Part shown: piece after piece, positions 26,974-60,673 of the stretch
Numbering within the stretch: position 1 is the stretch's first letter
Layout: each line of letters starts with the position of its first letter
DNA from: Kocuria subflava
GTDB lineage: Bacteria; Actinomycetota; Actinomycetes; Actinomycetales; Micrococcaceae
Reading direction: 5' to 3'
Assembly (NCBI RefSeq): GCF_012163155.1
Contig: NZ_JAAVUN010000008.1
Span: 1-64,000 of the forward strand
Length of the DNA: 64,000 nucleotides
Program-made: the position numbers and the translations under genes
Notes under the pieces: model-generated
The model's database searches: none
What the model was told of the DNA's origin: nothing
Seen by the model: only the letters and a program-made list of their open reading frames with translations

Positions 26974-27585
26974 GTGACGCTCGCGCGTTATCTCAAGGCA
27001 TTGCGCCGCATGTGGCCGATCGTTCTGATCACCACCGTGATTGGCATTGCACTCGGGTTGGGCTCAGCACTGGTGATGCCCAAATCCTATGAGGCCCAGT
27101 CAACAATCTTTGTGAACGTGGCTGAGTCCACCACAGTCCAAGACCTGCAGATGGGTGAACAGTTCGCCCAGGCTCGCGCAGCCTCCTATGCAGCCATCGG
27201 CACCTCCTCACGGGTGCTTGAGCCCGTTGCCCAGGAGTTGGGGGATGGTGCCACGGCTTCTTCCCTGAAGACTCAGGTCACGGTGACCAACTCGCCCAAC
27301 ACGGCAGTTGTGACCGTCACCGGCACTGACGGTGACGCCCAGCGTGCGGCCAACATTGCTCAGGAAACCGCTCAGGCCCTGGTGGATGCTTCCGCACAGT
27401 TGGAGGGCGCTGACAACACCCAGGACTCCCCGGTTCAGCTGAACATCGTCCAGGAGGCGGTGGTGCCCAACGCTGCGGCAGCCCCGTCCCTGCCCCTGAA
27501 CACTCTGGTTGGCGCAGTTGTCGGCCTGGTGATCGGGTTGCTGATCGTGCTGGCACGCGCGGGATCCACCCGCCGCCCTGCCTGA
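26974..27585 (+). CDS. Wzz/YveK-like polysaccharide chain-length determinant
   Basis: A 203-residue polysaccharide co-polymerase-like protein. GTG 26974 is chosen because GAGGGGGA lies 5 bases upstream; ATG 26959 is upstream of this site and in frame. One membrane helix near the N-terminus (WPIVLITTVIGIALGLGSAL) and one near the C-terminus (LNTLVGAVVGLVIGLLIVLA) flank an extracytoplasmic coiled region, the Wzz arrangement. It ends soon after the second helix, so the autokinase domain of BY-kinases is absent. It would set EPS chain length with the downstream Wzy-like polymerase. Confidence 0.82.
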   Translation: MTLARYLKALRRMWPIVLITTVIGIALGLGSALVMPKSYEAQSTIFVNVAESTTVQDLQMGEQFAQARAASYAAIGTSSRVLEPVAQELGDGATASSLKTQVTVTNSPNTAVVTVTGTDGDAQRAANIAQETAQALVDASAQLEGADNTQDSPVQLNIVQEAVVPNAAAAPSLPLNTLVGAVVGLVIGLLIVLARAGSTRRPA

Positions 27586-27690
27586 GCGGCCACCACCCAC
27601 CCACCAGCCGGGTCCTGGCAGCGGCCGCCACCGCGGCGGCTCTGACAGCCACCCCGCATTCAGCACACCCCACACGGCAAGGAGTCTGTG

Positions 27691-28920: not shown

Positions 28921-28921
28921 C

Positions 28922-30415: not shown

Positions 30416-30422
30416 GAGCAAC

Positions 30423-31502
30423 ATGCGCATCCTGCACGTGGTCAATGATGCCGACACCGGCGGGGCACAAACTCTGATCGAGGCTCTGGCCCAGCGCCGG
30501 GGTCCGCAGGACGAGGTCCACATCCTGGTGCTGCTGGGACGCGGCGGTCTCAGCGATCGTCTGGAGGCAGCAGCCACCACCGTGGACTACGTGGGCATGA
30601 GCCGCAAGGAAGTTCTACCGGCCCGCGCATCCGTGCACCTGCTGCGGTTGGTGCGCAAGCACAAGATCGACGTGGTGCACTCACACCTTCACCAGTCCGA
30701 TCTGGTCAACGCCATCACCCCGCACGGACGACCCCGGATCTCCACCCAGCACGCCGGCGAGGACGCCTCCTCCTCCAAGGTGGCCCACGCCGCCTGGAAG
30801 GCAGCCGGCAAGATGTCCTTCCGCATGGACCAGATGGTGGCCTGCTCCCCCTCCGCCCGGAACATCACGGCCGAGTTCGGCTACACGTTCCCGCCGGAAA
30901 AGATGCCCGTGATCTTCAACGGCACCACAGTCACCCAGGCGCCGTCGCCGAATCCCGGTGGTCAGCTGTTGCTGCACCTGGCACGGTTCGCCCCGCCCAA
31001 GGACCACCGCAACCTGTTGGAGACCATGGCCCGGGTACACGCACAACACCCGCAGGCGCGATTGTTGTGCGCCGGCAACGGTGTGGATGAGGCCAACACG
31101 CAACTGAGAACGTGGCGCACTGAACTGGGTCTGGACGGTGTGGTGGAGTTTGCAGGCACCATCACCAATGTCCGGGAAAAGCTGCGCCAGGCTGCTGCGT
31201 TGATTTTTGCCAGCTACAACGAGGCTCTGCCCATGGCGGGGCTGGAAGCCATCAGTGAGGGTCTGCCGGTGATCACCACCCGTGCCGGGGACGCCGCGTT
31301 CATGACCGTGGACGAGCACCTTGCCGTGCCCCCGCGGGACCCGGATGCTCTGGCAGCCGCTGTGGACTGGTTCCTCACCCGCACCCCGGAGCAGGTTGAT
31401 GACCTGCGTCAGGCTTCCTGGGAGCTCTCCCACAGGGACTTCGACATCAACCGCGCCACCGAGCGTTACATGGCCATCTACCGGGATCTGGCCCACTCCT
31501 GA
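30423..31502 (+). CDS. Family 4 glycosyltransferase (GT-B)
   Basis: A 359-residue protein from ATG 30423 with AGGAG 5 bases upstream. N-lobe MRILHVVNDADTGGAQTLIEALAQ and HSHLHQSDLVNAI are typical of GT4. The C-lobe has the E-x7-E type motif in NEALPMAGLEAISEGLPVITTRAG. It is the last gene of the plus-strand EPS operon, followed by a hairpin shared with the convergent flippase gene. Confidence 0.9.
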   Translation: MRILHVVNDADTGGAQTLIEALAQRRGPQDEVHILVLLGRGGLSDRLEAAATTVDYVGMSRKEVLPARASVHLLRLVRKHKIDVVHSHLHQSDLVNAITPHGRPRISTQHAGEDASSSKVAHAAWKAAGKMSFRMDQMVACSPSARNITAEFGYTFPPEKMPVIFNGTTVTQAPSPNPGGQLLLHLARFAPPKDHRNLLETMARVHAQHPQARLLCAGNGVDEANTQLRTWRTELGLDGVVEFAGTITNVREKLRQAAALIFASYNEALPMAGLEAISEGLPVITTRAGDAAFMTVDEHLAVPPRDPDALAAAVDWFLTRTPEQVDDLRQASWELSHRDFDINRATERYMAIYRDLAHS

Positions 31503-31611: not shown

Positions 31612-33291
31612 TCAGGCGCGGCCCGGTTCCTCTGCGTCCCGGGCCTCCTGGTCGGTTGTGCTCCGGGCGTTGTCCTCAGTGGCGTTCTGGGCCTGCCGCT
31701 GCGCCACCAGGGCTTCTGAGTTCTCCTCACTCATCTCAGCCACCACAGCGCCGTCGGCCCGTACCAGCTTGAGCATCCGCAAGGCCATCACTGCCAGACC
31801 CGCACCGACCACCAGGATGGTGGGCCAGGTGGGCAGGAAGTACGCCACCAGCAGCGCGAATCCGGCGTAGAGCAGAGCACCACCTGCCATCCCGCCCCAT
31901 CGGGTGAGGTCGCTGCGCTGCAGCCCGTAGGAGACGTCCTTGTTGGCCAGGTACATCTGCACCCCGGACATCAGGAAGCTGGGCAACACGGTGGCCAGCG
32001 CCACCACGGTGATGCTGTCCGTGAAGGTGGCAAGCCACACTGCGGGCAGGGTCAACACCAGCGTGGTCAGGCTCAGGATGGAGGCGCGCACGGCTGAGCC
32101 ACGCAGGTTCATCACCAGGTTGGCCGGCTGGGTGATGGCCTCGGCCATGATGCCCAGAGCCAACATGGACAGTCCCAGCGCGGCAGAGGCGAAGTCATCG
32201 CCCATCCACGCGGTCATCAATTCCGTGGGAATGGTGGCCAGGGCAACGCCCATGAGCAGGCCGATGCCCACGGTCAGGGTCAGACAGTTCTTGAGGATCT
32301 GTGCCGCCTTGTCAGGGGTGGCAATGCGCAACGGATACCCGTAGGGCAGGGCAATCCAGGAGACCACCAGACGGCAAGACTGGTACACGCGCATGAGGGC
32401 ACCGAAGGCGGTGGTGGCGTGCAAGCCCAATGTGGGACCCACCAGGAACAACGGCAGCTGGTAGATGCCCAACTGGGACAGCGCACCAATGGACATCACG
32501 GAAGAGATCTTGATCAGGGGCTTGCCGTGGTCGCGCCAAAGCCCTGGGCCAAAGACCGGGGAGCTGAACCGGCGGGCCACGGCCACCATGCACACCAGCG
32601 GCGGCAGCATCAAGGAGAGGCATTCCACCACCACGATGCCCAGCAGCCCGGTGTCCGTGACCACCACCACCGCATAGCCGGCCGCACGGCCCAGAATGGC
32701 AATCACCGCAGCCTTGCGCTCAATGTCCGGGCGGTTCAAGCCCCACAGTACGGAGTTCATGCCGCGGCCCACCAGGGAGATGAACAGGGTGAGCCCGGCC
32801 AGGATGGTCATGGGCCACAAGATCGCCTGGTCCTGCTCAGGGATGGTCACTGCCTGCAGGTAGAGCGGGAAGATCAGCGTGTAGACGGCGGTCAGCACCG
32901 TGGCAAGGATCAAGAACACCAGCAGGGCTGCGGTGACGAACATGCGGCGATCACGCTGGTAGTCCACGTTGTCCGGAATACCGGTCAAGGTACGGACAAT
33001 TCCGGCCCCCAGACCAAAGTCCGTCATGGTCAGCATCTGGATGGCACCGATGGCCAGCACCCACAGGCCGTAGGAGCTGGCACCCACAATGGAGACCGCC
33101 AGCGGGTAGAGCAGCAGCAGACCAAAGATGGAGGTGAATCCGGACAGGTAGTTCCACAGGATGTTCTGGCCCAGCCGTGATGCGCTGGTGTCCGCCCCTG
33201 TGCTGTTCTCAGTCTGCTTGCGGCCGCTCTCAACCACCTTGCGGTGTTTACCGGCGCCGCGGCGTTTCTTCCCCGAGTCCGTTGTGGCCAT
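31612..33291 (-). CDS. Wzx-like polysaccharide flippase (MOP superfamily)
   Basis: A 559-residue protein from ATG 33291; a longer frame to 33411 overlaps the upstream gene. A basic N-tail (KKRRGAGKHRKVVESGRKQ) precedes about 12-14 helices starting LGQNILWNYLSGFTSIFGLLLLYPLAVSIVG, the usual opening of RfbX/Wzx proteins. It would flip the undecaprenyl-linked repeat unit to the outer face for polymerisation. It is the last gene of the long minus-strand operon, 16 bases after the second hydrolase. Confidence 0.85.
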   Translation of the reverse strand: MATTDSGKKRRGAGKHRKVVESGRKQTENSTGADTSASRLGQNILWNYLSGFTSIFGLLLLYPLAVSIVGASSYGLWVLAIGAIQMLTMTDFGLGAGIVRTLTGIPDNVDYQRDRRMFVTAALLVFLILATVLTAVYTLIFPLYLQAVTIPEQDQAILWPMTILAGLTLFISLVGRGMNSVLWGLNRPDIERKAAVIAILGRAAGYAVVVVTDTGLLGIVVVECLSLMLPPLVCMVAVARRFSSPVFGPGLWRDHGKPLIKISSVMSIGALSQLGIYQLPLFLVGPTLGLHATTAFGALMRVYQSCRLVVSWIALPYGYPLRIATPDKAAQILKNCLTLTVGIGLLMGVALATIPTELMTAWMGDDFASAALGLSMLALGIMAEAITQPANLVMNLRGSAVRASILSLTTLVLTLPAVWLATFTDSITVVALATVLPSFLMSGVQMYLANKDVSYGLQRSDLTRWGGMAGGALLYAGFALLVAYFLPTWPTILVVGAGLAVMALRMLKLVRADGAVVAEMSEENSEALVAQRQAQNATEDNARSTTDQEARDAEEPGRA

Positions 33292-33307
33292 GCCTTGGCG
33301 CGCCTTC

Positions 33308-35269
33308 CTAGATGATGGTGGCCCTTGTGCCTGCAGCGCCCTGGAGAGGGTCGGATGGGTCGCGGTCGGTTGTCCCCGGTTGACCGTGGCGCGAACGGTC
33401 GGCCTCCCCAAAGGCCGATCCCGCTCCTACAAGGAGTTCGAGCAGGATACTACGCACCGCCACCCTGGCGGCGGCACTCAGCAACGCGTGGTCAAGTTCG
33501 GGGACAGAACGCACCACAAGCCCGCTGGCTTGGGACAAGACCTCACCTGATCGGTGGCGGGTGAGCAGAATCTCACGGTGGGCAGCCCCGGATTCAGGAC
33601 CCACCCCAGCGCCACCACGTCCACGACGACGCTGGGCCCGGCTGGCGGCCCATGTCCCGTTGAGCTGGTGGAAGCGCAGCAGGTCTTCGCGCCCCTGCAC
33701 CAGTTCCAGCCCCGGCACATCCGTCTGGTCCAGGACCAGGGATGGCGCATCCACCAGGCCGGTGTACCCCATCAGATGCCACAACCGCGCCGGTGCGTTG
33801 TTCTCCAGGGTGTCCTTGGCTAGGGACAACCAGCCCTTGAGTCGGCGTGGCAGGTGGGCGGCGTGCACGAGGAGGGAGCTGTGGGCGGCGTCGTCGTGCG
33901 GTGTACCAGGTTCCGGTTGTTGAGTGGCCGCAAGGGCAGCAGGTGCCCCGTCCCAGCCGGCGATCTTGGTGTAGACCCGCTGGTAATGGGTGGTTCCGGT
34001 GCGCCAGGCGATGTTGTTGAAGGCGATCACGCGCTGCAGTCCGCAGGCCTCTCCGGCCTTCATGAGCAGCCAGGAGCCCACACACAGGCCCACCCCTGTC
34101 ACGGGTGCCCCGGTGTGGCGGGCCAACCAGGCGATGTCCGCGCGGACGGCGTTGATGGCGGCTTGTTCGTAGGGAATGGGGGGGTCGTCGTCCAGGGGGT
34201 CGGCCAGCACCCCACAACGGGGTCGGTCCGTACGCAGCACCGTGAGACCAGCGGCGGCCAGGTCCCGCGCGCAGGCGGTCCACAGTCCGGTGGGGCCATC
34301 CATGGGCTCAGCGGCCGCCGAGACCATGAACACGGCATGACCGGAAGCGTCCTGAGTCCCGTCTGCGGTCCTCGCCGCTGTTCTTGCTGGGGTGACGTCC
34401 CCGGGGGCAGCGGTGAAAATGCCTGGACTGCCCGCGTCAGTGACCACCAAGCGCTCAACCACGGTGGACCCGGCATGAACCAGCTCCATGGTCTCAAGCG
34501 GCTGGAGATCCACGGCGGACTCGGCGCAACCACGCGGCTCAGCCAGGTCAAGGGCGATCTGCTGAACACTGCTGCGCGGCACTCGGGCGAACTCGCTGGA
34601 GACCTCGTAGAGCAGTTCGGCACTTCCACGGTCTTGCTCCGTGCGCACTGACCATCCGTCAGGCAACGGCCCGGTGCCGGGGTCCTTGAACCGCTTGAGG
34701 GCATCGGCTTGAGCAGGCGTGTAGAGCTCCCCGGAGGTTTCAGTGCCCAGGGCGGGATCCGCCACGGGGCGCGCCACGCTCATCCTGCGCAACGCAGCCG
34801 CTTTGCGCAGGTAGGCACGGCCTCCCACCGGTTCCCACAAGATGCCCTGGTGCACAGGCACCTGATGGGTGGCGGCAGCGCTGCCCAGGACAGCTGCCCC
34901 GATCCGCAGTCCCACTGCTTTCAGCGGCACGCCAGGTGCGCGTCTGCCGAGCTCACCCACAGCAGCCATGACGTCCTGCTGCCAGGCCTCATACAGATTC
35001 TCCGGGGCCGGGTGCGAATCGCCCGTGCCACGCAGCGCGATCCGCAGAACCGCGGCACCGCGCAAGGCCAACTCATGGCTCAACGCAACCAGCGCCCGAA
35101 CGCTCACCACTTGTTCACGCCCCACGGGAGCCACCAGAACCACGCCGAAACGGGCTCGCCCACTGCGGGGAGCCTCAAGCACACCGTGAACGCCGGCGTC
35201 AGGGAAGCCGTCAGCTCCCGGAACACGAATCCATGTGGGAATCGGCCCGGTGGTCAGGGACGTGGTCAC
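33308..35269 (-). CDS. Double-domain alpha/beta hydrolase-like protein (copy 2)
   Basis: A 653-residue protein starting at GTG 35269, which overlaps the preceding stop as GTGA. Two alpha/beta-hydrolase-like halves are visible. In the first, VVLVAPVGREQ and ALRGTGDS precede an elbow GLRIG (residues 120-124) with Arg in the nucleophile position. In the second, the elbow is GLCVG (394-398) with Cys in place of Ser. These elbows resemble, from memory, hydrolase 2 (GLRxG) and hydrolase 1 (GLCxxS) of proteobacterial exosortase-A EPS loci. A role in handling acyl or aminoacyl thioesters of the nearby carrier protein is inferred. The C-tail is Arg/Gly-rich. No signal peptide is present. Confidence 0.65.
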   Translation of the reverse strand: MTTSLTTGPIPTWIRVPGADGFPDAGVHGVLEAPRSGRARFGVVLVAPVGREQVVSVRALVALSHELALRGAAVLRIALRGTGDSHPAPENLYEAWQQDVMAAVGELGRRAPGVPLKAVGLRIGAAVLGSAAATHQVPVHQGILWEPVGGRAYLRKAAALRRMSVARPVADPALGTETSGELYTPAQADALKRFKDPGTGPLPDGWSVRTEQDRGSAELLYEVSSEFARVPRSSVQQIALDLAEPRGCAESAVDLQPLETMELVHAGSTVVERLVVTDAGSPGIFTAAPGDVTPARTAARTADGTQDASGHAVFMVSAAAEPMDGPTGLWTACARDLAAAGLTVLRTDRPRCGVLADPLDDDPPIPYEQAAINAVRADIAWLARHTGAPVTGVGLCVGSWLLMKAGEACGLQRVIAFNNIAWRTGTTHYQRVYTKIAGWDGAPAALAATQQPEPGTPHDDAAHSSLLVHAAHLPRRLKGWLSLAKDTLENNAPARLWHLMGYTGLVDAPSLVLDQTDVPGLELVQGREDLLRFHQLNGTWAASRAQRRRGRGGAGVGPESGAAHREILLTRHRSGEVLSQASGLVVRSVPELDHALLSAAARVAVRSILLELLVGAGSAFGEADRSRHGQPGTTDRDPSDPLQGAAGTRATII

Positions 35270-37116
35270 GACGCCGTTGGGGCAATGTGCGGCTGTGCGT
35301 CTCCTGCCGCGTGGTCCCCCACCAGCTCGGTGCGCAGGGTCTCCAGGACCGTCCTGCACCCGGTTGCCGTAATGACGGAGTGGTCCAGACGATCACTTTC
35401 CACGGATCGGACGCTGCGCCCGGCAGCGGAGAGCTTGTCCACGGCCCGATCCGCCCGGGTGACCTGCCACCGCGGAAGATCATCCGGGCCGTTGAGCACC
35501 ACCACCCGGGTGTTGCGACTCAGAGGCTCCAGCACACGTTCGGGGGTCTCCAGCCTCCCCTGCTTGCCGGCCAACTGCCACAGCACGTACGGCATACGTG
35601 TGCGCAGCAGCTGCACCACCTGGTCGCGGAGCACCGCCTTGACGGCAGGCAGACCCTGGCTGATGCGGAGGTCATTGAGCCACAGGACGCGGTCCAGCAC
35701 CCCCGGCAGCCCGGGCCGGATCTTGCGCGTGGGCATCTGCGGGGCAGCTGAGTTCCGTGCCGCCCGGTTGACCGTGCCCGTGGCTGCTGCTGTGCGCGGG
35801 GCATCGGCGTTGTAGGTTTCCCGCACTTGCTCCCACAACTGCTCGGACATCTTCCATTCGGCGTGCCCGATCAGTACCAGGCTCTGAACATTCAACGGTG
35901 AACCGTGCACCGCAGACAGCCCTGCCGCCCACGCGGATGAACACAGCAGCCCCGCATGCACGGGCTCGCATCCGTTGGACCTCAGCCAGTCCACCGATTC
36001 CTGGAAGCTCACAGCACTGCGGCGGGTGTAGCTGTTGGTGGCCCGAATGGCGTCCACGGGCGTGGAATCGCCCACCAGGGGCCGGTCCACCCGCAGGGTG
36101 ACCAGTCCGTCTGCTGCCAAGGCGCGGGCAATCAGCGGCCATTCGCCACCTCCGTAGCGGGGATCCGGGCCACCACCTGAGACGAACAACCCTTCCGCCC
36201 CGCGGAAGTCTCCGGGTTCGCCGTAGCCCTGTGCCCAGGTGACCACTCCCACCCGGTGTTCCGGGCCCACTTCCACCACACGTTCGTGCAACTGGTGGCC
36301 GTTCGCATCCGTCCAGGTGTTCTCCAGCACGGTGTGCAGTTCCGCTGCCACCGGGCGAGCCGTGGCTGCCGGCAGGGCGTCACGGACGCGGTTCAGGACG
36401 TCATCGTGCACTCGGATGTCAAAGGGCTCCACGCCGTACATGGCTTTGGCGCGGCGCTTGTCCGCCTCCTTGACCTCCACCACCGTGGTAGCCGCGCCGG
36501 CCGCTTGCTCTGTGCCCTCATCAGCGGCACCTGGCTCCGATGTCACCGTGTCGCTGGGCTGTGGAATACCTAAAGTGCTGAACTGCTGGGCCTGCTCCGG
36601 GGTGAGGGCCATGCCCAGAAGGTCCACCAGCCCCTCCGTGTCAGGGACGTGATGTGCAACGGTGTGCCGCAGTCGGGACCACTGGCGGACAAAAGTCTTG
36701 CCGGCCACCGGTTCCCAGGAGACCACGGTGTCGAACTCCTCCAGCATGCTGCCCACCACCGCGGCACCGGTTCGGTACCCCACGGCATGCGTGGGCAGAT
36801 CGTGGACGCCCAGCAGCTGACGGGTGCCGTCCACCACGGCCCGGACATCCGCCTGCCACGCCTGGACGGCGTCGTCCGTGGGCAGCAGCGGCTGGGAATC
36901 CAAACTTCCACGCCATCCAAAACGCACGGCGGTGAATCCGGCCTGCGCCAAGATGATGCACAGCCTGCGGATGGTCAGCGCGGACAGCGTCAACTCACGT
37001 CCGGCCGGCGGTGCCACCACCACCAGGCCACGGCTTGTGGCCTCTGGCGAGGTGTGGACCCAAGCCAGCACTGCAGCGGATCCTGTACCGATCCACGTCG
37101 GTTCTCCCTTGATCAT
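35266..37116 (-). CDS. Double-domain alpha/beta hydrolase-like protein (copy 1)
   Basis: A 616-residue paralogue of the next gene in the operon: SWEPVAGKTFVRQWSRLR here matches LWEPVGGRAYLRKAAALR there. The first half has VVVAPPAGRELT and elbow GYRTG (113-117); the second has GLLCSSAW (389-396) after a WPLIARALAADGLVTLRVDRP segment typical of alpha/beta hydrolases. A Glu/Ala-rich linker (about 190-220) separates the halves. ATG 37116 overlaps the GH2 stop as ATGA. The classical Ser nucleophile is not evident in either half, so catalysis, if any, may use Cys. Function unknown, probably tied to EPS acyl decoration. Confidence 0.65.
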   Translation of the reverse strand: MIKGEPTWIGTGSAAVLAWVHTSPEATSRGLVVVAPPAGRELTLSALTIRRLCIILAQAGFTAVRFGWRGSLDSQPLLPTDDAVQAWQADVRAVVDGTRQLLGVHDLPTHAVGYRTGAAVVGSMLEEFDTVVSWEPVAGKTFVRQWSRLRHTVAHHVPDTEGLVDLLGMALTPEQAQQFSTLGIPQPSDTVTSEPGAADEGTEQAAGAATTVVEVKEADKRRAKAMYGVEPFDIRVHDDVLNRVRDALPAATARPVAAELHTVLENTWTDANGHQLHERVVEVGPEHRVGVVTWAQGYGEPGDFRGAEGLFVSGGGPDPRYGGGEWPLIARALAADGLVTLRVDRPLVGDSTPVDAIRATNSYTRRSAVSFQESVDWLRSNGCEPVHAGLLCSSAWAAGLSAVHGSPLNVQSLVLIGHAEWKMSEQLWEQVRETYNADAPRTAAATGTVNRAARNSAAPQMPTRKIRPGLPGVLDRVLWLNDLRISQGLPAVKAVLRDQVVQLLRTRMPYVLWQLAGKQGRLETPERVLEPLSRNTRVVVLNGPDDLPRWQVTRADRAVDKLSAAGRSVRSVESDRLDHSVITATGCRTVLETLRTELVGDHAAGDAQPHIAPTAS

Positions 37117-39893
37117 TTCTGCCTCTCCTGGGTCTCTGCCGGTGTCTGCGGCCAGTTCTTGGCCAAGACCACGGCGATCTCCCGTTTCTCCCCCGGACCC
37201 AAAGTCATCACATCGTCTTCTGCCACCACACCCGGCCCCACATCCACGCTGACCCCTGCCGCCGAGAGTGAGGACTCCCGACCCACCTCCCGGAATCCGT
37301 CCGTGTGGCCACCATCCAGCTGACTCAGGGACAGCCCTTCCAGCAGATCAGCAGCGGCGTCCCGGTGCCCATCACCCAGAAGCCGGGTCTCCCGCAGGCA
37401 ACGCACAGCGCAGTTTCCCCCGGGGTCCCCGATGCCATCAGGGATGATCTCCACGGCCACGGCCTCCCATTGCCGTAGCCCAAAACCCCATGTGTGGTTC
37501 AGGTCCAGGAACCCACCCAGGACCTGCTCCACGTTCCAGATCTTCTCCCCGGCCCCTGGCATTTCCACCTGCACCCGGGCAGAGGGACCAGCCACTGCGT
37601 GTCGGCTCCAGGTCCTGACCTCCATCATGCCCGTGAACGGCTCATCACGGTCATGGAGTACGTGAATGTGAAGCCCGGACAGTCCGTCGTCCACAATGCG
37701 CACCGCGGTGTCTGCGCACGCCCGGCGCATGGCGTACCAGGTGGCCTTGGGCCGGCCCGTGTGATCCAACAATCCCCACCCGGGCCCTGCCGTCAGATCG
37801 CGGCTGGAGAGGATCACCACACCGTCACACCCGGAGGCCTCCCGCCGCAGATCCGTCAGTGTGTGTTCCACGGCGCGGGCCGCAGCCACCCGCTCCGCCT
37901 GCAGTTGCTGTTCTCGACTCAGTTGCGCCCAGAACGAACCCGCTGGGGCCGAACCCCTTGAGACCAGATCTGTTGGCACCAGACCCGTTGCGCCCTGGGG
38001 CGGTTCCTCAGGGTTCGACGGCGCCCCACCGGCCGCCCCGGTGTCTGCCTCCAGGCCCGGCTCCAACCAACGGCGGGCATAGTGCACCGTGGTGTCCTCG
38101 AAGTCCCAGGACGCACCGGGGTCCTTGGCGGCACCGGCACGCCAGGTGGTGCGGGCGTCGTCGTTGTGGTCAGCAGTGGCAGAGCCGAAGGCGGCTGCGA
38201 TCTGGGAGGCGGCTGGTGGCACACCAAAGGCCAGGGCCTCCACGGCAAACCGCACCCCGCTGGTCCGGGTGTCCGTGAGTGGGCGACGGTAGGCCCCCAC
38301 CCCGAACCAATGGGAGATCCCGGTGTCCGGACGTGTGGGCGGTGTGCCCCCACTGGGGCTGGAGGGCACATGAACAACCTGCGGTGCCAACTCGGCACAC
38401 AGCCTGGGAATCAGGTCCTCGATCACCGGAATCTGAATCGTCGCCAGGTCCCGGCCCCACAGCACGGGTTGCTGCAACACCTCGTTGCCACCGGAGAACA
38501 CCGCCACGCAGGCGTGGGCTGCCAGCCGGGGCAACCAGGTGCGCAGCTCTGCCTCCACCAGCGCCAGCCATTCCGGCTCCGAGGGCGGATCCAGTGTGGC
38601 CAACATGGCGTCGTGCCACACCATGACTCCGTGCTGATCACAGGCATCGTAAAAAGCTTGTTGTTCCCAGGCATGCGTCCCGGAAATCCGCAGCAGGTTG
38701 GCCCCGGCGGCACGCATGGCCCGGACCATCCGATCGATTTCGGCAGGGTCACCACCCAGGGTCACAGGGTCCACGGGGGTCCAGACGGCACCGCGGGCAA
38801 AGATCTTGCGTCCGTTGACCGCCAGAGCGAATCCGCCGTCATGCTGCTCGGCCGTGATGTGGCGAAAACCCACCTGGCACTGCTGGATGGTGTGCCACGG
38901 CTCCTCACCCGGGCCACGCACGGAGACCGTCAGTAGGTGCAACTGCGGCTGACCGTGGGTGGCCGGCCACCACAGCGCAGGATCTGCCACGGCGAGCACC
39001 AGGGTGCGCTCGCCGGCTTCCAGCGCCCATTCCTCCGTGACCACTGTTGCCTGTTGCCCGGGTGCTGCGCATGTTGCCCGCACGGTCACCTGCTGCGGCA
39101 CCCGCACGGAGACCTCGACCCGACCTGTGGCATCAGCCGTGGCAGTTCCACCTGGCCGGTCCAGTGCGGTACGTACACCCTGCACCTCCACACCGTGACC
39201 GTCCACGGGTTCCAGGGTGGCCTCACCCCACGGACCCACCACGGGGTGGGTCCCGGACCACGGGATGCGCCCGATCAGCGGCGTACGCCGCCAGCGCAAG
39301 GAGGAATCCGCCACCAACGTTGAGCGCCAGCGGGGTCGGGGTTTACGCGGCACCGGCACCAACGACGGCGCTCGGCACACCACGGCCAGTTCATGGGTTC
39401 CAACAGTTCCCGCAAGATCCACCACGACGTCGTCCAGCCCACTCACCGAATGTGCCACCCGCTGCCCGTCCCAGAAGACTTCAGAAACGGTGGCCACCCC
39501 GCACAAACGCAAGCGCCACGTGCGTGCAACGGAACCACCCTGGTGGCTGGGCCCATCCGGGAACTGCACAGAGGTGCTCCACCACCAGTCGAAGTCATCC
39601 GGGTGCACGAGTGATTGGCCACCCGACTCCCGGGCATCCAGTGGATCAAGTCCCGCATCGCGCAATGCACCCGCCACGGTTCCGGGAACCGTGGCGGCAA
39701 CGGAGTTGATCACGGTGTCTGGATCCTGCTCCCACCCCACGGCAGCAGAGATCACGTCCTGGAGGAGCCCGTCATGCACCGAGTCCGGCCGGCGGGCAGT
39801 GCTGGGTAGCAACGTGCCGTCCCATTGGAGGTCAGCAGAGAATGCCACTGCCCCGGCTCGGGTACGCCTCAGGCTCCAGTCCAGCTCAGTCAT
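37113..39893 (-). CDS. GH2-family glycosidase (beta-mannosidase-like)
   Basis: A 926-residue protein starting at ATG 39893, overlapping the DUF1839 stop by one base (TGATG). It has an N-terminal jelly-roll-like domain (FDWWWSTSVQFPD...GVATVSEVFWDGQRV) and a TIM barrel with FARGAVWTPVDPVTLGGD and GANLLRISGTHAWEQQAFYDACDQHGVMVWHD. The acid/base Glu471 lies in SGGNE and the probable nucleophile Glu552 in RFAVEALAFGVP. These are the landmarks of GH2 beta-mannosidases. No signal peptide is seen, so it looks cytoplasmic, which is odd in an EPS biosynthesis operon. It may trim or edit a lipid-linked or mis-assembled glycan. Confidence 0.82.
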   Translation of the reverse strand: MTELDWSLRRTRAGAVAFSADLQWDGTLLPSTARRPDSVHDGLLQDVISAAVGWEQDPDTVINSVAATVPGTVAGALRDAGLDPLDARESGGQSLVHPDDFDWWWSTSVQFPDGPSHQGGSVARTWRLRLCGVATVSEVFWDGQRVAHSVSGLDDVVVDLAGTVGTHELAVVCRAPSLVPVPRKPRPRWRSTLVADSSLRWRRTPLIGRIPWSGTHPVVGPWGEATLEPVDGHGVEVQGVRTALDRPGGTATADATGRVEVSVRVPQQVTVRATCAAPGQQATVVTEEWALEAGERTLVLAVADPALWWPATHGQPQLHLLTVSVRGPGEEPWHTIQQCQVGFRHITAEQHDGGFALAVNGRKIFARGAVWTPVDPVTLGGDPAEIDRMVRAMRAAGANLLRISGTHAWEQQAFYDACDQHGVMVWHDAMLATLDPPSEPEWLALVEAELRTWLPRLAAHACVAVFSGGNEVLQQPVLWGRDLATIQIPVIEDLIPRLCAELAPQVVHVPSSPSGGTPPTRPDTGISHWFGVGAYRRPLTDTRTSGVRFAVEALAFGVPPAASQIAAAFGSATADHNDDARTTWRAGAAKDPGASWDFEDTTVHYARRWLEPGLEADTGAAGGAPSNPEEPPQGATGLVPTDLVSRGSAPAGSFWAQLSREQQLQAERVAAARAVEHTLTDLRREASGCDGVVILSSRDLTAGPGWGLLDHTGRPKATWYAMRRACADTAVRIVDDGLSGLHIHVLHDRDEPFTGMMEVRTWSRHAVAGPSARVQVEMPGAGEKIWNVEQVLGGFLDLNHTWGFGLRQWEAVAVEIIPDGIGDPGGNCAVRCLRETRLLGDGHRDAAADLLEGLSLSQLDGGHTDGFREVGRESSLSAAGVSVDVGPGVVAEDDVMTLGPGEKREIAVVLAKNWPQTPAETQERQK

Positions 39894-40879
39894 CACGGTC
39901 CGGCCCACTCCCTCAGGGTGGCGGCAGCCAGGGCCCACTGTTCGCTGATGGTGGCCATGGTGGTTTCCAGGGAGGCTGACTTGCGTCCACGAGCCACCCG
40001 GGCCAGCTGAAACTGCAGCGCCTTGGACTCCTTGCTCACCGTCACGTATGCCTCAGCGGCCCCCTGGATCTCCTCCACGGCGCTGAACCTCACGGCCTCT
40101 GCCGCCAACATGCTGACCACTCCCAGCTGCCGTGTGGTCTCAAAGCACAGGGCGTGATAGCCATCCATGCCGGCCTCAGCCAACCAGTCGAAGTGCGAGC
40201 GCACCACGTCCATCAGCTCGGCCACCGGGTTGTGGGCTGTGGCCCGCAGCGCGTGGTGACGCAGCAAGCGGACGGTGTGCGCACGGGCGTCGTCGTCGTT
40301 GGCGGCTCCCAGACGATCCAGGCGCACCAACTCCACGTACGGTGCCGGCACAATGCCCTGGCTGCGCTGCTCACCCAGGACAAAGTCAAAGTCCTGGCCG
40401 CGCAGTTCGTGCAGGCCCTCGTTGTGGAGATAGACCAGGTGACGCTGCTGCGGGTCCACCCGCAACGGCACTATGGAGGTCTTGGTGTGCTCCGTACCGT
40501 AGGAGATGCCGCGGGTGTCCGGGAGCCAATGTGCATCGGCCTCGATGATCATGAGGTTGCCTGCCGCCATCTGCGTGAGCACATGCTCCAGGAGCGGTTT
40601 CCAGACGTCGTACTCCCCCACCCGCAGCCCGTGGACCTCCTCCAGGTCCCGGTGATCCACCTTCAGGAACTCGAACTGTTCCACCTGGGTTTCGGCCGCA
40701 ACGGCCGCAGCAAACAGCGGCTCGGGGCGCCTTCCCATGCCGTGCAGCAGCTCAACCCACACATCCAGGTAGCAGTTGGTGTTGGACCACAGCGACTGGT
40801 CCTGATGCAGCGGATGAGGTGTGAAACCTTCCGCGCTCAGACCTGGGAACACAGCACTGGTGGCAGGCCCTGCGCTCAT
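39893..40879 (-). CDS. DUF1839 family protein
   Basis: A 328-residue protein overlapping the ligase gene upstream (ATGA) and the GH2 gene downstream. The N-terminal half carries HPLHQDQSLWSNTNCYLDVWVELLHGMGRRPEPLFAAAVAAETQVEQFEFLKV, then EVHGLRVGEYDVWKPL and NLMIIEADAHWLPDTRG. From memory these match DUF1839, a family known mainly as a partner of amino acid:[carrier protein] ligases in bacteria such as Bradyrhizobium. Conserved His, Asp and Cys residues suggest a peptidase-like or transferase fold, but no activity is established. It may release or transfer the aminoacyl group from the carrier protein. Confidence 0.68.
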   Translation of the reverse strand: MSAGPATSAVFPGLSAEGFTPHPLHQDQSLWSNTNCYLDVWVELLHGMGRRPEPLFAAAVAAETQVEQFEFLKVDHRDLEEVHGLRVGEYDVWKPLLEHVLTQMAAGNLMIIEADAHWLPDTRGISYGTEHTKTSIVPLRVDPQQRHLVYLHNEGLHELRGQDFDFVLGEQRSQGIVPAPYVELVRLDRLGAANDDDARAHTVRLLRHHALRATAHNPVAELMDVVRSHFDWLAEAGMDGYHALCFETTRQLGVVSMLAAEAVRFSAVEEIQGAAEAYVTVSKESKALQFQLARVARGRKSASLETTMATISEQWALAAATLREWAGP

Positions 40880-41826
40880 GCGGCATCCAGTCCCAACAAG
40901 TCGCGGACGGACTCAGGCCACGTCCGCAGGTCCGTGCCGTGGGTGCGCGCCAGGGCCAGGGCAATGCGTTCCAGTCCAAAGCCGAAGCAGGCCGAATGCG
41001 CCACGGAACCATCCGGGGTGCGCAGGTCGAACTCCGCCCCGAAGTGGTCCTCGTGGTAGTTGCCGGAGGAGATGGCGGTGTTGCGTCCCGGATAGATCTC
41101 AGTGGTGATCTCGAACTTCAGTTCCGCGGCCCGCTGGCCCTTGGCCAGCATGACCCCGGCCCGCCCGAAGAACGGGTCATTGGCACCCTCGACGGTGACT
41201 GCCAGCCCCAGGCCAGCCAACAGGCCTTGCCCAAGCTCCAGCATGGCGGTGCGGTGGGCCACGGCCTGCTCGGGGCTGCCCACCAGCACGAACTCCAACA
41301 TGCGGAAGCTGACCAACCGCATGGGATCCGGTGAGGGCTCATTGCGGAAGCAGTCGCCCGTGATGGTCCACACGGTGCCGTCCACGGTGGCGGCGTTGAC
41401 CTGGCTCAGCCACGCGTAGAGCGGATGGCAGGCGGCAGGTACCAGGGCGTAGTCGCTGGTGTGCAGGTGACCGTCCCAGGGCAGACCGGCCTCACGGTCA
41501 GCCAGCAGGCGGCGGTGATCCTTGGTGTCCCCGGAGAACACGTCCACGGTGCCCAACAGCTGCGGGAAGCTGGCCACGTAGTCGGTGCGTTCCAGCATGG
41601 AGCGCCCGTTGACCGGTGGGAACCGCACGGACTGCAGAGCACCCGGACGTGGCAGGTGCCTGGCCACACGGTCCCGCGCCAGGCGTTGCAGGCCCTGGAT
41701 CACGGCCTCCATGGCCACGCCGGTTCCGGTGACACCAGCACCCAATGTGGGCAGCAGCCACTGCGCTTGGAGCAGCTCGGCCTCAAAGGCACGCTCGGCG
41801 TCGAGGACATCAGGTTCCGTGGTCAT
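40876..41826 (-). CDS. Amino acid:[carrier protein] ligase (SerRS-like class II aaRS homologue)
   Basis: A 316-residue protein resembling the catalytic core of zinc-containing (methanogenic-type) seryl-tRNA synthetases without a tRNA-binding arm. Motif 2 is TGDCFRNE (Arg161), motif 3 FGFGLERIALAL (Arg286). Putative Zn ligands are Cys133 (AACHPLY), Glu178 (FRMLEFV) and Cys280 (SACFGFG), the Cys-Glu-Cys set of characterised aa:CP ligases at nearly the same spacing. Known homologues adenylate small amino acids (Gly or Ala) with ATP and load them on the phosphopantetheine of a dedicated carrier protein. Here the carrier gene, a PPTase gene and DUF1839 are all adjacent. The amino acid specificity is not readable. 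Confidence 0.85.
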   Translation of the reverse strand: MTTEPDVLDAERAFEAELLQAQWLLPTLGAGVTGTGVAMEAVIQGLQRLARDRVARHLPRPGALQSVRFPPVNGRSMLERTDYVASFPQLLGTVDVFSGDTKDHRRLLADREAGLPWDGHLHTSDYALVPAACHPLYAWLSQVNAATVDGTVWTITGDCFRNEPSPDPMRLVSFRMLEFVLVGSPEQAVAHRTAMLELGQGLLAGLGLAVTVEGANDPFFGRAGVMLAKGQRAAELKFEITTEIYPGRNTAISSGNYHEDHFGAEFDLRTPDGSVAHSACFGFGLERIALALARTHGTDLRTWPESVRDLLGLDAA

Positions 41827-43076
41827 CGCCGCCCCCTGGAAACCATTTGGAGGGTGGCCGTGTTCTTCAGAATGCGGTCATTGTTGACCTGCAGGGACGG
41901 ACCCATGGCATCACGCAGAGGGCGAGCCAGGGACCACGGCCCGGTGTTGGAATAAGAGGCAATGCCCACGATCACCATGGCATCCCCCACAATCTGCCGC
42001 ACCAGCTCAGAGGTGGAGACCTTGAGGGTGTTCATGGCAATGGCAAAGGGCATGGAACCCAGCACGGAGACGTCATCGGCCTGGTCTGCAAACCGCCGCA
42101 CGTTCACGCGCACCACGTCCGTCATGCGCTGCAGCTCGATCTCCAGTTCAGCCAAACGCAACGCACCTGGCGGGAGTTCGCCCGGAGTGGCCCGGGCCTT
42201 TTTCTGAACGAACTTCCGGGCCAGATCCCCCGCCGCACTGGCCAGCCCCAACCAGGAGGAGGCCCACAGCGTGTGGGAGGCCGGGAGCATGGTGTGGGAG
42301 GAAATGGTGGCAAAGTCCACGGGCAGCACGTGATCCGCGGACACCGTGGCTTCCAGTTCAAACCCTTCAGACATGGTCCCCCGCAGACCCAGTGCGTCCC
42401 AGGGTGTGGTCCGGTCCAGCTTCAGGGCGGACTTGGGCGCCACCACAAGGACTTGCTCGGAGGAGGGCGCTTCCGGATGACGCCGGGCGGTGACCAGGAT
42501 GGCGTCCGCATAACGGGCATAGGAGATCACCGGCGCGGACTTGCACACCGTGACAGTCCCGTCCCCGTTCTCCACCACAGCGCACGACGACGTCCGGGTG
42601 TCCCCGCCAATGTTCTTCTCCGTGGTGGAGGAGGCCAGCAGCCACTGCTCGGCCGCCACTCGCTCGGTGACGGCCGTGAGCGCGGACTCCTGCTCCAAGT
42701 CCACATGGCGAGTCAGGCACAACTCTTGACTGAAGTGCATGGCAACGATTGCCGCCGTGGAACCGCACACGCGGCCCAGCTCCTCGATCAGTGCGCACAA
42801 CTCAACAATGCTGACGGCACGCCCGCCGCGAGCCTGGGGCACCACCGCACCGAAAATCCGCTGCCGGCGGCATTCGCCAATGGCCTCGTGCGGAAACCTG
42901 CCCTGTCGATCGACGTCGTCCGCGTGTTCGCGCGCCACCGCAACGACGGCCTCAACGCGCTGCTCCCACGTGTTGTGGGTGTCCGGCGGCAGATCCCGGA
43001 CCACGGTGGTGCCGGTGGGAATTTCGTGCTGATCAGCAACCTTGTCCGTGGCACCCAATTCGGTGCGTAGGCTCAT
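41823..43076 (-). CDS. Acyl-CoA dehydrogenase-like flavoprotein
   Basis: A 417-residue protein from ATG 43076 (TGATG overlap with the carrier-protein stop; GTG 43079 is equally possible). The fold is shown by FPHEAIGECRRQRIFGAVVPQARGGRAVSIVELCALIEELGRVCGSTAAIVAMH, the middle domain EQWLLASSTTEKNIGGDTR and the LARPLRDAMGP C-terminal helix. The usual catalytic Glu position of medium-chain dehydrogenases is not Glu here (GPSLQVNNDRI), closer to flavin monooxygenase-like members. By analogy with prolyl-carrier-protein oxidases, it might oxidise an aminoacyl thioester on the carrier protein. This is inference from position in the operon. Confidence 0.75.
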   Translation of the reverse strand: MSLRTELGATDKVADQHEIPTGTTVVRDLPPDTHNTWEQRVEAVVAVAREHADDVDRQGRFPHEAIGECRRQRIFGAVVPQARGGRAVSIVELCALIEELGRVCGSTAAIVAMHFSQELCLTRHVDLEQESALTAVTERVAAEQWLLASSTTEKNIGGDTRTSSCAVVENGDGTVTVCKSAPVISYARYADAILVTARRHPEAPSSEQVLVVAPKSALKLDRTTPWDALGLRGTMSEGFELEATVSADHVLPVDFATISSHTMLPASHTLWASSWLGLASAAGDLARKFVQKKARATPGELPPGALRLAELEIELQRMTDVVRVNVRRFADQADDVSVLGSMPFAIAMNTLKVSTSELVRQIVGDAMVIVGIASYSNTGPWSLARPLRDAMGPSLQVNNDRILKNTATLQMVSRGRR

Positions 43077-43339
43077 CACTGCTCATCCTGCAAGGTGGCC
43101 ACTGCCTGGGCGATCGAGTCCAGGGACTCGAAAGTCTCCTTGGTGAGCATCTCCTCCGGGAACTCGATGTCAAAGGCATCTTCCACGCCCAGCATCACGT
43201 TGACCGAGGCGTGGGAGGTCATGCCCGCGGTGTAGAGACTCTCCGATGCGCTCAAACTGGCGGCGTCACTACTCAGGTGGGCATGCTGTGCCACCACGTC
43301 CCGAATGGTCTCCACCAGCTGCGAACGGTCCTGACTCAC
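43076..43339 (-). CDS. Acyl/aminoacyl carrier protein
   Basis: An 87-residue acidic four-helix carrier protein. The phosphopantetheine attachment site is Ser42 in AGMTSHASVNVMLGVED, where TSH replaces the DSL triad of fatty-acid ACPs. A T-S-x-A-S-V context is, from memory, typical of carrier proteins served by aa:CP ligases. The GTG start at 43339 has GGGGAT about 8 bases upstream. It heads the long coupled operon (ACP, dehydrogenase, ligase, DUF1839, GH2, two hydrolases, flippase). Confidence 0.85.
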   Translation of the reverse strand: MSQDRSQLVETIRDVVAQHAHLSSDAASLSASESLYTAGMTSHASVNVMLGVEDAFDIEFPEEMLTKETFESLDSIAQAVATLQDEQ

Positions 43340-43540
43340 GATTCATCCCCAATTCTCCCGGCCTGCATGCCGGGATTTCCCCACGAGCTGCTGACGTGCA
43401 GCTCACTGCGTGGGCCTGCCCGCGATGAGCAGGAACCCACAAAACTCCCCGTCCGCGGCGCCGCCCGAGCCCCACGAACCGGCACGCGTGGTCAGGTCCC
43501 CACCTGAGCATCTGCGGCCACATGCAATTCTACCGTAATT
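43340..43540 (-). promoter_or_regulatory. Promoter/leader of the carrier-protein operon
   Basis: An AT-rich patch (about 43523-43556) in an otherwise GC-rich gap offers TAGAAT elements on the minus strand as -10 candidates. Nearer the gene, CCCGGC/GCCGGG (43357-43362 with 43369-43374) forms a small hairpin 18 bases upstream of the start, which could modulate translation. Evidence is suggestive only. Confidence 0.4.
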
Positions 43541-43981
43541 CTATGATTTTGCACCAGTCAGTGCGACAACTGTTGCGTAACCAGAAGCGGTGACACCGTG
43601 GCCACAGAACCATGACCAGGCCCTCCACTGGTCAATGCCCTGGCGCTGAGCGGTCTGCAGCGCACCATCGGTCACATGCACGGACCACCTCTGGGCCCCG
43701 GCAGGCACGCCGTCGTGGTCTTCCACACCGGCCGGGGACTTGTGCACGGCGATCCACCGCCACGCCCAAGGCTCGTCCGAGCGCACGGCGAGGGCCTTGG
43801 CCACGGCTTCCTTGAGGGCATAGCGCTGGGTGATCTCCTCCACGGACATGGAGGTTCCGCTGTGCTCAGATGTGGCCAGCACCGTGTTCAGGTAGCGCTG
43901 ACCGTGGTGAAGCCACGCTTGACGGACGGCACGGGCCGACTGGGTGTCACACCCCACCGCGACGACGCATGGCTGGTCCAC
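43541..43981 (-). CDS. Holo-[carrier protein] synthase-like phosphopantetheinyl transferase
   Basis: A 146-residue AcpS-type PPTase. The N-terminal VAVGCDTQSA carries the metal-ligand Asp12, and RYALKEAVAKAL carries Lys57-Glu58, the core (x)KEA motif with the second metal ligand. The rest is short, as in AcpS rather than Sfp. It would transfer 4'-phosphopantetheine from CoA to Ser42 of the downstream carrier protein. It follows the GT4 gene by 15 bases and is probably cotranscribed with it. The local PPTase supports a dedicated carrier-protein system separate from fatty-acid synthesis. Confidence 0.82.
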   Translation of the reverse strand: MDQPCVVAVGCDTQSARAVRQAWLHHGQRYLNTVLATSEHSGTSMSVEEITQRYALKEAVAKALAVRSDEPWAWRWIAVHKSPAGVEDHDGVPAGAQRWSVHVTDGALQTAQRQGIDQWRAWSWFCGHGVTASGYATVVALTGAKS

Positions 43982-43996
43982 CTGGGCACCTCAGGT

Positions 43997-45145
43997 CTAC
44001 GGAGTGATCAGGTCAATGCCCAGCGCCCCGGTGGGCAGCAGCTCCAGCCCGTACGCCTCTGCCAGGCGTTCGCGCTGCATGGAGCGGGTGTTCTCCCACA
44101 GTGCGGCGTTCTGCTCAGCCACGATCGTTTCGCGAGCCTGTGCGTCCTTGAGCCGTTCCCAGTGCTGCACCAGATCCTCCGGGCGTTGAATCACCAACGG
44201 CATGCCGATGTCATCAAAGGCCCGGATGCCACGCACCGCCATGGGGCGGCCCAGTTGAGCGGCCTCCAACACCGTGATGGGAAAGCCCTCCCACCGGGCG
44301 GTGTGGACGTAGAGGTCTGCCTGTGCCAGGTGACTGAGCACGGAGGAGGGGTCAACCCATCCGGTGACCTCAATGTCCTGGGCCTCCATCTGCGCCTGCA
44401 GTTGGTCATCACCACCGCCCACCCACAACGCGCGCACCGAATGACCTGCTGCACGCAACGCCGCGATGACCTTGGCGAACCATTCGGGGTCCTTCTGCAT
44501 GGTCAGGCGCCCGGAGCCCACCACCAGCGGGGCGTGGGATTGGTTCCAGTCGGTGATCTGCGCCTTCTCCAGCTGAGCTTGAATCTCAGGGGCCACGTTG
44601 GGCACGTACACGGTTTTGAGCTTGGCACCCCACGCGCGGATTTCCTGGTTCTCTGCCCGTGAACAGCCGGCCAGCACATCCGTGCGGCGACTCAGGCTGC
44701 GTTCGACCGCCCGGTAGGCCTTGCGTTGGGCGTTGGACTTGTCCTCACGGTCAAAGGCCCAGGCATGCGGCGTGTAGACGCAGCGCACGGTGTTGTTGCC
44801 CACCAGCGCGGCGCGGGCCCACACGCCCGCGTAACTGCTGTGGGCATGGACCACATCAGGGTCCAGCGTGTTGATGGTGGCGCGCACCAACTTGGTGGCA
44901 CCCATGTGGCCACCGTCAATACGGTGGATGGAGGCGAATTCCTCCACCCACTCCGGTTCCAGGGTCTCGGCTTCGGGGCGCAGGCGGCACACCAGATGGT
45001 GTTCGCATTCCGGCAGGGCTCGGACGTAGTCGCGCACGGCGGCAGCCACGCCGCCGCCAAAGGCCTCCACCACGTGCACCACACGCTTGCGGAAGCCCTT
45101 GCTGCTGTGCTGCTGACGATCGGTGGCATGAGTCATCGATGCCAT
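43997..45145 (-). CDS. Family 4 glycosyltransferase (GT-B)
   Basis: A 382-residue GT4: KRVVHVVEAFGGGVAAAVRDYVRAL (N-lobe glycine-rich loop), DVVHAHSSYAGVWARAAL, VVGSGRLTMQKDPEWFAKVIAALR and the donor-site block RWEGFPITVLEAAQLGRPMAVRGI. The ATG at 45145 follows GAGGGGGAGCA. The fold resembles glycosyltransferases using UDP- or GDP-sugars in EPS pathways. It heads the transcript containing the PPTase gene and probably assembles the EPS repeat unit with the other three glycosyltransferases. Confidence 0.9.
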   Translation of the reverse strand: MASMTHATDRQQHSSKGFRKRVVHVVEAFGGGVAAAVRDYVRALPECEHHLVCRLRPEAETLEPEWVEEFASIHRIDGGHMGATKLVRATINTLDPDVVHAHSSYAGVWARAALVGNNTVRCVYTPHAWAFDREDKSNAQRKAYRAVERSLSRRTDVLAGCSRAENQEIRAWGAKLKTVYVPNVAPEIQAQLEKAQITDWNQSHAPLVVGSGRLTMQKDPEWFAKVIAALRAAGHSVRALWVGGGDDQLQAQMEAQDIEVTGWVDPSSVLSHLAQADLYVHTARWEGFPITVLEAAQLGRPMAVRGIRAFDDIGMPLVIQRPEDLVQHWERLKDAQARETIVAEQNAALWENTRSMQRERLAEAYGLELLPTGALGIDLITP

Positions 45146-60632: not shown

Positions 60633-60673
60633 GAGCCCTGCCCCACAACCGCTGAGACCCATTCACCCCAACC

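Follow-up and report, generated by a model that had tools for sequence, protein, structure and literature searches.

The exopolysaccharide (EPS) locus of Kocuria subflava considered here lies in a stretch of 64,000 nucleotides (the window; contig NZ_JAAVUN010000008.1, positions 1 to 64,000 of the forward strand, from assembly GCF_012163155.1, 3.03 Mb in 284 contigs). It carries a cassette encoding a carrier protein, an acyl-CoA-dehydrogenase (ACAD)-fold flavoprotein, a ligase resembling seryl-tRNA synthetase (SerRS), a DUF1839 protein and a GH2 glycosidase, followed by two tandem alpha/beta-hydrolases (hyd1 and hyd2) and a probable Wzx flippase. On balance, we lean towards the reading that this cassette adds an (oxidised) aminoacyl amide to an amino sugar of the EPS in the cytosol, before flipping. 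Transfer to a surface sugar at that stage is suggested because the five cassette proteins contain no clear transmembrane segment, the DUF1839 model matches the fold of CcbD, and EPS genes are enriched around related loci. Aminoacyl decoration before flipping had been put forward in a preliminary description of the window and stands as the best reading, in which the acceptor, the amino acid and the flavoprotein chemistry are inferred. The accompanying statement that no pathway of such a type had been described has to be withdrawn, as a note in proof of 2010 had already predicted amide ligation to a surface amino sugar from gene neighbourhood (PMC2922099). The idea is thus a rediscovery, and the Kocuria cassette is an instance of the predicted kind, now with a concrete proposed mechanism.

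DUF1839 fold and the predicted amide transfer

The DUF1839 protein (39893..40879, minus strand; PF08893, E = 1.9e-89, 300.5 bits, above the 22.5-bit threshold) was modelled from a 38-row alignment with a predicted local distance difference test (pLDDT) score of 93.9 and a predicted template-modelling (pTM) score of 0.91, a single-sequence AlphaFold model with a pLDDT of 34 having been set aside. A Foldseek search with this model returned 19 chains at E <= 0.001, eight of CcbD, eight of CtaG and three of AziU3/U2, and none else. In the VIA comparison, CcbD aligned over 287/328 residues with Z 20.5 and a root-mean-square deviation of 3.4, followed by AziU2-U3 (Z 18.2) and CtaG (Z 17.0); rows beyond these three families reached at most 9.8 and were mostly helical proteins, together with the endoisopeptidase PeiR (Z 8.4). 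AziU3/U2 are presumably proteins of the azinomycin pathway. Thr34-Asn35-Cys36, His152, Asp163 and Lys286 are invariant in the alignment, and position 134 is Thr or Ser. Cys36, present in 38/38 rows, opens the model helix 36-47, the first main helix, and with His152 and the Thr/Ser at 134 it makes up the candidate active site. The BtrH_N profile matched 4 of the 38 members weakly (best E 0.0073), a search of PDB sequences with the DUF1839 profile found, at E up to 10, seven matches, most of them designed coiled coils, and eight pattern matches for DUF1839 relatives in viral contigs yielded no confirmed member.

In CcbD, a Cys accepts carrier-tethered proline and transfers it to the amine of a thiooctose, and arginines contact acidic residues of the carrier protein (PMC12945683). 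CtaG has been proposed to move an acyl group between carrier proteins (PMC6772006), and a 2023 survey assigned DUF1839 to the papain-like proteins, giving it a Cys-(Thr/Ser)-His triad and suggesting from its context acyl-CoA-dependent processing of cell-wall glycans (PMC10318531). From the model, DUF1839 is predicted to be a CcbD-like aminoacyl-S-carrier-protein:amine amide synthase with Cys36, Thr134 and His152. Of the new evidence, this match speaks most strongly for transfer to an amino sugar as an amide, as a likeness of fold from which an activity is predicted, and it names a candidate for the missing transferase together with a likely reaction. A more specific version is offered only tentatively. 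DUF1839 would be an amide synthase of the CcbD type whose Cys-Thr-His triad is rearranged; working with the ligase by the logic of lincosamide synthetase, it might attach an oxidised (e.g., N-hydroxylated) glycyl or alanyl group, as an amide, to an amino sugar of the EPS prior to export.

The carrier protein and the ligase form an amino-acid:carrier-protein module inside the EPS locus, a result supported by both proteins, with loading predicted from their sequences. The carrier protein (43076..43339, minus strand; NF005480, 1.1e-29, over cut-off) holds Ser42, the expected pantetheine site, in the motif G-M-T-S-H-A-S, and this residue is kept in 94/94 aligned rows. The ligase (40876..41826, minus strand; NF005479, 3.5e-98) scores 328.5 bits against an equivalog cut-off of 357 and so falls outside equivalog membership; among solved structures it matches Bll0957 (3mey) at 1.4e-58 and 4h2w at 1.6e-60. 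Its motifs and zinc set are intact, as had been described, with Cys133, Glu178, Cys280, the motif-2 residues Arg161 and Glu163 and the motif-3 residue Arg287 found in 13/13 aligned ligases. The role of amino acid:[carrier protein] ligases was still called unknown in 2022 (PMC9437257).

The flavoprotein (41823..43079, minus strand) matches the ACAD N-terminal domain at 5e-12, and His115, His269, Ser186 and Tyr187 are invariant. Its catalytic-base positions were read off HMMER alignments, using the active-site positions of medium-chain (MCAD-type) and isovaleryl-CoA (IVD-type) dehydrogenases. At the usual ACAD catalytic Glu position, Val or Ile stands in 42/42 rows (V398 in the window), and at the IVD-type position Ser, Ala, Thr or Arg in 42/42 rows (S268 in the window), so that the catalytic Glu of a dehydrogenase is found at neither. 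Given the lack of an acid at either known base position, monooxygenation is favoured over alpha,beta-desaturation on the strength of the alignments, and it was likewise guessed in 2010 (PMC2922099). Matches to DnmZ, DszC and a nitrososynthase (4e-23 to 7e-21) point the same way, against a true dehydrogenase. Such an enzyme, acting as in prolyl-peptidyl-carrier-protein (PCP) oxidation and leaving an imino- or oxo-acyl rather than a hydroxylated product on the carrier, would be compatible with the other readings and is somewhat unlikely, with real points in its favour: true dehydrogenases score best, Rv1679 FadE16 being the best single profile (4.3e-29), the prolyl-PCP dehydrogenase RedW matches at 6.5e-9, and, among solved structures, the eight top-ranked ones of the profile search are named acyl-CoA or butyryl-CoA dehydrogenases.

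As proposed, a 4'-phosphopantetheinyl transferase (PPTase) would arm the carrier protein at Ser42, and the ligase would adenylate a small amino acid, Gly or Ala in studied relatives, and load it onto the carrier. The flavoprotein would then alter the tethered aminoacyl group, more likely by monooxygenation, and Cys36 of DUF1839 would take the aminoacyl group from the carrier and pass it to a sugar amino group to give an amide, as in CcbD. GH2 and the Cys-type tandem hydrolases might be trimming or editing enzymes for the glycan or for its acyl groups, Wzx would flip the decorated repeat unit, and polymerisation would come after. Gene order, conservation, the fold match, the active-site residues and presence or absence of the cassette at the EPS locus were seen directly; the roles of GH2 and the hydrolases, like the amino acid, its oxidation and the acceptor, are those we infer. 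In a crude hydropathy scan, the carrier protein, flavoprotein, ligase, DUF1839, GH2 and hyd1 showed no clear transmembrane segment, hyd2 showed a single borderline one and Wzx a large number.

Polysaccharide genes around the cassette

The spread of the cassette was followed through its ligase. Named loci are the best 80 of at least 585 ligase relatives, and removal of eight from Kocuria, whose contigs recur in a separate Kocuria set, left 72, in which gene calls are heuristic. A carrier protein was present in 71, the flavoprotein in 64, a hydrolase in 57, DUF1839 in 39 and GH2 in 36, and all 36 GH2 loci hold DUF1839. Within Kocuria, the ligase occurs in 17 of 27 genomes (source included), with DUF1839 and the flavoprotein present in 16/16 fetched loci, and it occurs in none of the 32 other genomes of the same family and order that were compared. 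An even sample of the phylum gave the ligase in 10/396 genomes, the source included, one of them (G194) of the same order. DUF1839 was found in 2/9 genomes of this sample with a ligase-family match, several of which hold only distant family members, against 0/386 others, the source being excluded and both counts being assumed to rest on the same 396 genomes. G194 (L054 and L055, about 10 kb apart) and the genome of L124 (Arsenicicoccus) each hold two amino acid:[carrier protein] ligases, and the second ligase adjoins its own carrier-protein or PPTase-like open reading frame (ORF).

The neighbourhoods were scored with GT4, GT2, Wzz, flippase and phosphoglycosyl transferase profiles, which were partly seeded from the loci under test and leave families such as Wzy and GH16 outside their coverage; the flippase profile, seeded with the window Wzx and a Salinibacterium flippase, mixes two groups. 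At least one EPS gene was found in 37 of the 58 loci of 18 kb or more, the 14 shorter ones being left out, compared with 6/40 control regions (p = 1.4e-6), and at least two in 21/58 compared with 2/40. The controls were taken at round coordinates from eleven genomes of the same phylum sample, other than those of the 72 loci; they matched the hydrolase profile in 2/40 and GH2 in 1/40 regions, and DUF1839, ACAD, carrier protein and ligase in 0/40 each. An EPS gene lay near 21/28 loci with DUF1839 and 13/25 loci with flavoprotein and carrier protein and without DUF1839. Examples include Salinibacterium L110 (phosphoglycosyl transferase, GT4, a flippase-like protein and Wzz), Methylobacterium L137 (a Wzz-kinase and GT4), Bosea L140 (Wzz), Rhodococcus L091 (GH16 and GT2), Williamsia L076 (GT4) and Methylosinus L134 (an EPS transport family match under cut-off).

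Within Kocuria, ligases form one set of 17 rows with support 91/81 under midpoint rooting, divided into group A (6 rows, the window among them) and group B (11 rows). Group A ligases lie in a window-type EPS locus, with a Wzx homologue in 5/6 genomes (absent from G020), and group B ligases lie elsewhere. In G018, the one group B genome annotated at length, the neighbours are a WcaI-like GT4, Gmd, a GDP-fucose-synthase-like protein, a Polysacc_synt_3 flippase, GT2, Wzz and another GT4, and both G018 and G006 also hold the first, window-type EPS locus in a cassette-free form. G024 has this first locus (GT2, Wzz, GT4, Wzy, GT4, Wzx, hyd1, GT4) at 63-83% identity to the window, with hyd1 about 90 bases from the window-type GT4 named GTa, and no ligase was found in its 99% complete genome; G002, 79% complete, resembles it. 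Since the EPS locus of G024 is free of the cassette and group B ligases sit in another EPS locus, the cassette is an accessory that can be absent or reside in a different EPS locus, and one hydrolase is a component of the EPS locus proper. With cassette-bearing and cassette-free EPS loci both available in Kocuria, the purpose of this ligase family becomes testable.

Several results weigh against amide decoration of EPS. No EPS gene was detected by the profiles used in 21/58 long loci, nor in any locus of 8 of the 21 taxon groups (genus labels assigned by hand), including Curtobacterium (0/6). Averaged by group, EPS genes lay near the module in 11.2/21 (taken as 11, p = 0.006), so that the co-occurrence expected in the preliminary description holds over controls and comes close to, without reaching, a module found as often away from EPS genes as with them. 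Across the 27 Kocuria genomes, the ligase and the window-type Wzx are weakly associated (10 with both, 7 with ligase only, 2 with Wzx only, 8 with neither; p = 0.11). No clear amino-sugar gene was seen among the annotated flanking genes. DUF1839 is missing from 33/72 loci, in which another enzyme must act, and its triad, as assigned in PMC10318531, is Cys-Thr/Ser-His rather than the Cys-His-acid order of CcbD. In the one Curtobacterium locus annotated, L129 (8583-19599), a carrier protein-flavoprotein-ligase-hydrolase set is followed downstream by aceE and a gene for an acyltransferase, EPS genes being out of view, and this variant without DUF1839 may have another purpose.

The chief rival draws on some of the same facts. 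On that account, the cassette would make a diffusible small aminoacyl-glycoside, lincosamide- or mycothiol-like, and would lie near EPS genes only through common sugar precursors. The closest folds, CcbD, AziU3/U2 (presumably, as noted, from azinomycin synthesis) and CtaG, stem from small-molecule pathways; a GT4 adjoins the PPTase; GH2 keeps both expected catalytic Glu residues, shows no transmembrane segment in the hydropathy scan and stands beside DUF1839 in 36/36 cases; and all six Curtobacterium loci carry the carrier protein, flavoprotein, ligase and hydrolase without EPS genes in view. We consider this unlikely, given that one Kocuria ligase set occupies two different Wzx/Wzy-type loci, that EPS genes are enriched over controls, and that family searches of 20 window proteins turned up nothing for export or resistance of the sort expected in a small-molecule cluster. 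An NRPS-like (nonribosomal peptide synthetase) role was set aside, since family searches with the cassette and neighbouring proteins, ten in all, gave no condensation or other NRPS domain.

The DUF1839-GH2 pair and the tandem hydrolases

The GH2 protein (37113..39893, minus strand; PF00703, 1.5e-6) resembles beta-mannosidases, and two Glu at the expected catalytic places, E486 and E567 (numbered on the longest ORF, whose end is at 39938), are invariant in 36/36 rows. Wherever GH2 is found (36/72 loci) it adjoins DUF1839, on the same strand in 36/36 and within 50 bases in 34/36, and the three DUF1839 loci without it (L087, L099 and L135) end soon after DUF1839. Ligase and DUF1839 share a strand in only 23/39 loci. 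From this strict pairing on one side and loose strand relation on the other, the module seems to consist of two sub-units, carrier protein-flavoprotein-ligase(-hydrolase) and DUF1839-GH2. The pair lies on the opposite strand from carrier protein, flavoprotein and ligase in L104, L136, L094 and L095, and several genes away from them in L094 and L095, and therefore seems to move as a unit of its own.

The hydrolases hyd1 (35266..37116, minus strand; TIGR03100, 5.1e-10) and hyd2 (33308..35359, minus strand; TIGR03101, 2.4e-16), of the same architecture, resemble exosortase-A-associated hydrolases with all scores under the curated cut-offs (at best 40.6 and 60.1 bits against 168.45 and 202.75). 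The C-terminal elbow holds Cys392 in hyd1, with Asp546 and Asp578-His579, and Cys426 in hyd2. Across 53 aligned rows this Cys is present in 52 (one gap), the Asp is 89% and the Asp-His 96-98% conserved, and the N-terminal elbow, with the consensus G-L-R-x-G-A, shows no obvious nucleophile. In Azospirillum L123 and Methylobacterium L137, GH2 is followed by one protein with hydrolase 2-like and hydrolase 1-like halves, with TIGR03100 matches down to 2.8e-34.

Such enzymes, rather than DUF1839, could conceivably move the acyl group to the polysaccharide, leaving DUF1839-GH2 as a separate accessory pair, a variant compatible with the other readings. The conserved Cys and Asp-His are in keeping with this, as are the presence of hydrolases in 29 of the 33 loci without DUF1839 and the persistence of hyd1 in EPS loci without the cassette. 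That persistence also counts against it: hyd1 is kept in G024, in which the search detected no ligase, and may therefore act on something other than an aminoacyl-carrier protein, and the hydrolases, which had been described as continuing the run of the aminoacyl module, are not specific to it. The hydrolase profile also matches control regions, and no structural or experimental link of the hydrolases to carrier proteins was found, no fold search having been made. Transfer by the hydrolases thus appears improbable, and DUF1839 remains the preferred transferase.

Gene order, neighbouring genes and related systems

ORF checks and family searches bore out the positions, order and minus strand of all ten genes named in the preliminary description. 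Overlaps of 4 bases join carrier protein and flavoprotein (43076-43079), flavoprotein and ligase (41823-41826), ligase and DUF1839 (40876-40879), and GH2 and hyd1 (37113-37116), and DUF1839 and GH2 share 1 base provided that GH2 begins at the ATG at 39893. The run described as unbroken into GH2, the hydrolases and Wzx therefore consists mostly of 1-4 base overlaps, but the overlaps of about 100 bases at hyd2 and wzx exist only with the longest ORFs; the true start of hyd2 is probably near 35270 and that of Wzx probably 33291. Wzx (31612..33411, minus strand) has many hydrophobic segments and a match to NF041503 (5.2e-5) far under cut-off, a Pfam search gave no match, and BLASTP showed no homology to the Salinibacterium flippase (E 1.4). 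Its homologues adjoin a Wzy homologue in the same 12/27 Kocuria genomes.

Upstream, the glycosyltransferase GTa (GT4, 43997..45145, minus strand; PF13579, 2.3e-20), a member of the Kocuria EPS locus also present in four EPS loci without the cassette (L184-L187), and an AcpS-type PPTase (43541..43981, minus strand) lie in the order claimed. A gap of 201 bases separates the PPTase from the carrier protein, so GT4-PPTase may be a unit apart from the carrier-protein cassette. The PPTase has a K-E-A motif and matches PF01648 (2.5e-4, 21.5 bits against a cut-off of 25) and NF011251 (2.3e-7, under cut-off); like that of Wzx, its earlier identification stands as a candidate match of weak score. An early PPTase hidden Markov model, positive in 69/72 loci, was discarded since it had probably drifted onto carrier-protein ORFs, and a motif-filtered count (37/72 loci, 11/16 Kocuria loci) was not used as evidence.

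The EPS gene set is completed by a divergent operon on the plus strand, with Wzz (26959..27585; PF02706, 8.2e-10), the GT4 proteins GTb (27688..28920; PF13692, 8.1e-13) and GTc (30312..31502; PF13692, 2.3e-24) and a probable Wzy-like membrane protein (28904..30415), assigned by position and sequence and without a match in a Pfam search, together with a GT2 at the edge of the locus (25471..26661, minus strand; PF00535, 6e-30) and a phosphoglycosyl transferase (Bac_transf; 56865..58784, plus strand; PF02397, 1.1e-69). The last, likely the EPS initiation enzyme, lies about 12 kb off and is the single match found in a search of its own genome.

Among the closest known systems is that of Bradyrhizobium and Agrobacterium, in which the 2010 note links a SerRS-like ligase with an acyl carrier protein, a redox enzyme, the uncharacterised conserved protein Atu2574, a glycosidase and saccharide genes, all shared with Kocuria; the PPTase, the tandem Cys hydrolases and the neighbouring Wzx are added here and are not named in that note (PMC2922099). 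Lincosamide synthetase (CcbD/LmbD, with the carrier CcbZ/LmbN) has in common a carrier-tethered amino acid, a Cys enzyme of the DUF1839 fold and an amide to an amino sugar, here predicted. It differs from the cassette in that the triad assigned to DUF1839 is rearranged, activation is by a class-II aminoacyl-tRNA-synthetase-like ligase, and the context is polysaccharide rather than antibiotic. Atu2574 is, we presume, a DUF1839 protein. In AlmEFG, a carrier-loaded amino acid decorates lipid A; DltA and AlmE are adenylating enzymes of another type and are paired with different transferases, and the Dlt and Alm systems have no known counterpart of the flavoprotein, DUF1839 or GH2. Exosortase-A (XrtA) EPS loci contain an acyl carrier protein and an AMP ligase. 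They share hydrolase 1 and hydrolase 2, the relatives of hyd1 and hyd2, although every hydrolase score seen here is under the curated cut-off. DltABCD likewise uses a small carrier protein loaded with an amino acid to decorate a surface polymer (PMC12930378).

Searches of the open-access literature showed no experimental study of the module and no paper tying DUF1839 to CcbD. As far as these searches show, what is new comprises the CcbD-type fold of DUF1839, the flavoprotein's lack of a catalytic acid, the strict pairing of DUF1839 with GH2, the Cys hydrolases, an EPS locus free of the cassette and the controlled count. If the proposal is true, surface modification by amino-acid amides on EPS sugars would be widespread among actinobacteria and proteobacteria, and tools for amino-sugar acylation could come from DUF1839 enzymes.

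Other genes near these loci may be recorded. Two adjoining large regulators of LuxR type (907 and 939 aa), which also have AAA domains, occupy 47467-53002 of the window, and an 839-aa protein with a LuxR-type C-terminus adjoins the EPS genes of Salinibacterium L110; such large LuxR-type proteins may be a type of EPS regulator common to both. In Williamsia limnetica L076 (12679-15401), an EAL gene and then an oppositely oriented GGDEF gene follow the module, suggesting cyclic di-GMP genes nearby. Directly after the phosphoglycosyl transferase of the window, 58896-61987 encodes two proteins that each carry three SLH repeats. One also has a GH25 lysozyme domain and the other a CAP domain, and both are possibly anchored to a cell-wall polymer.

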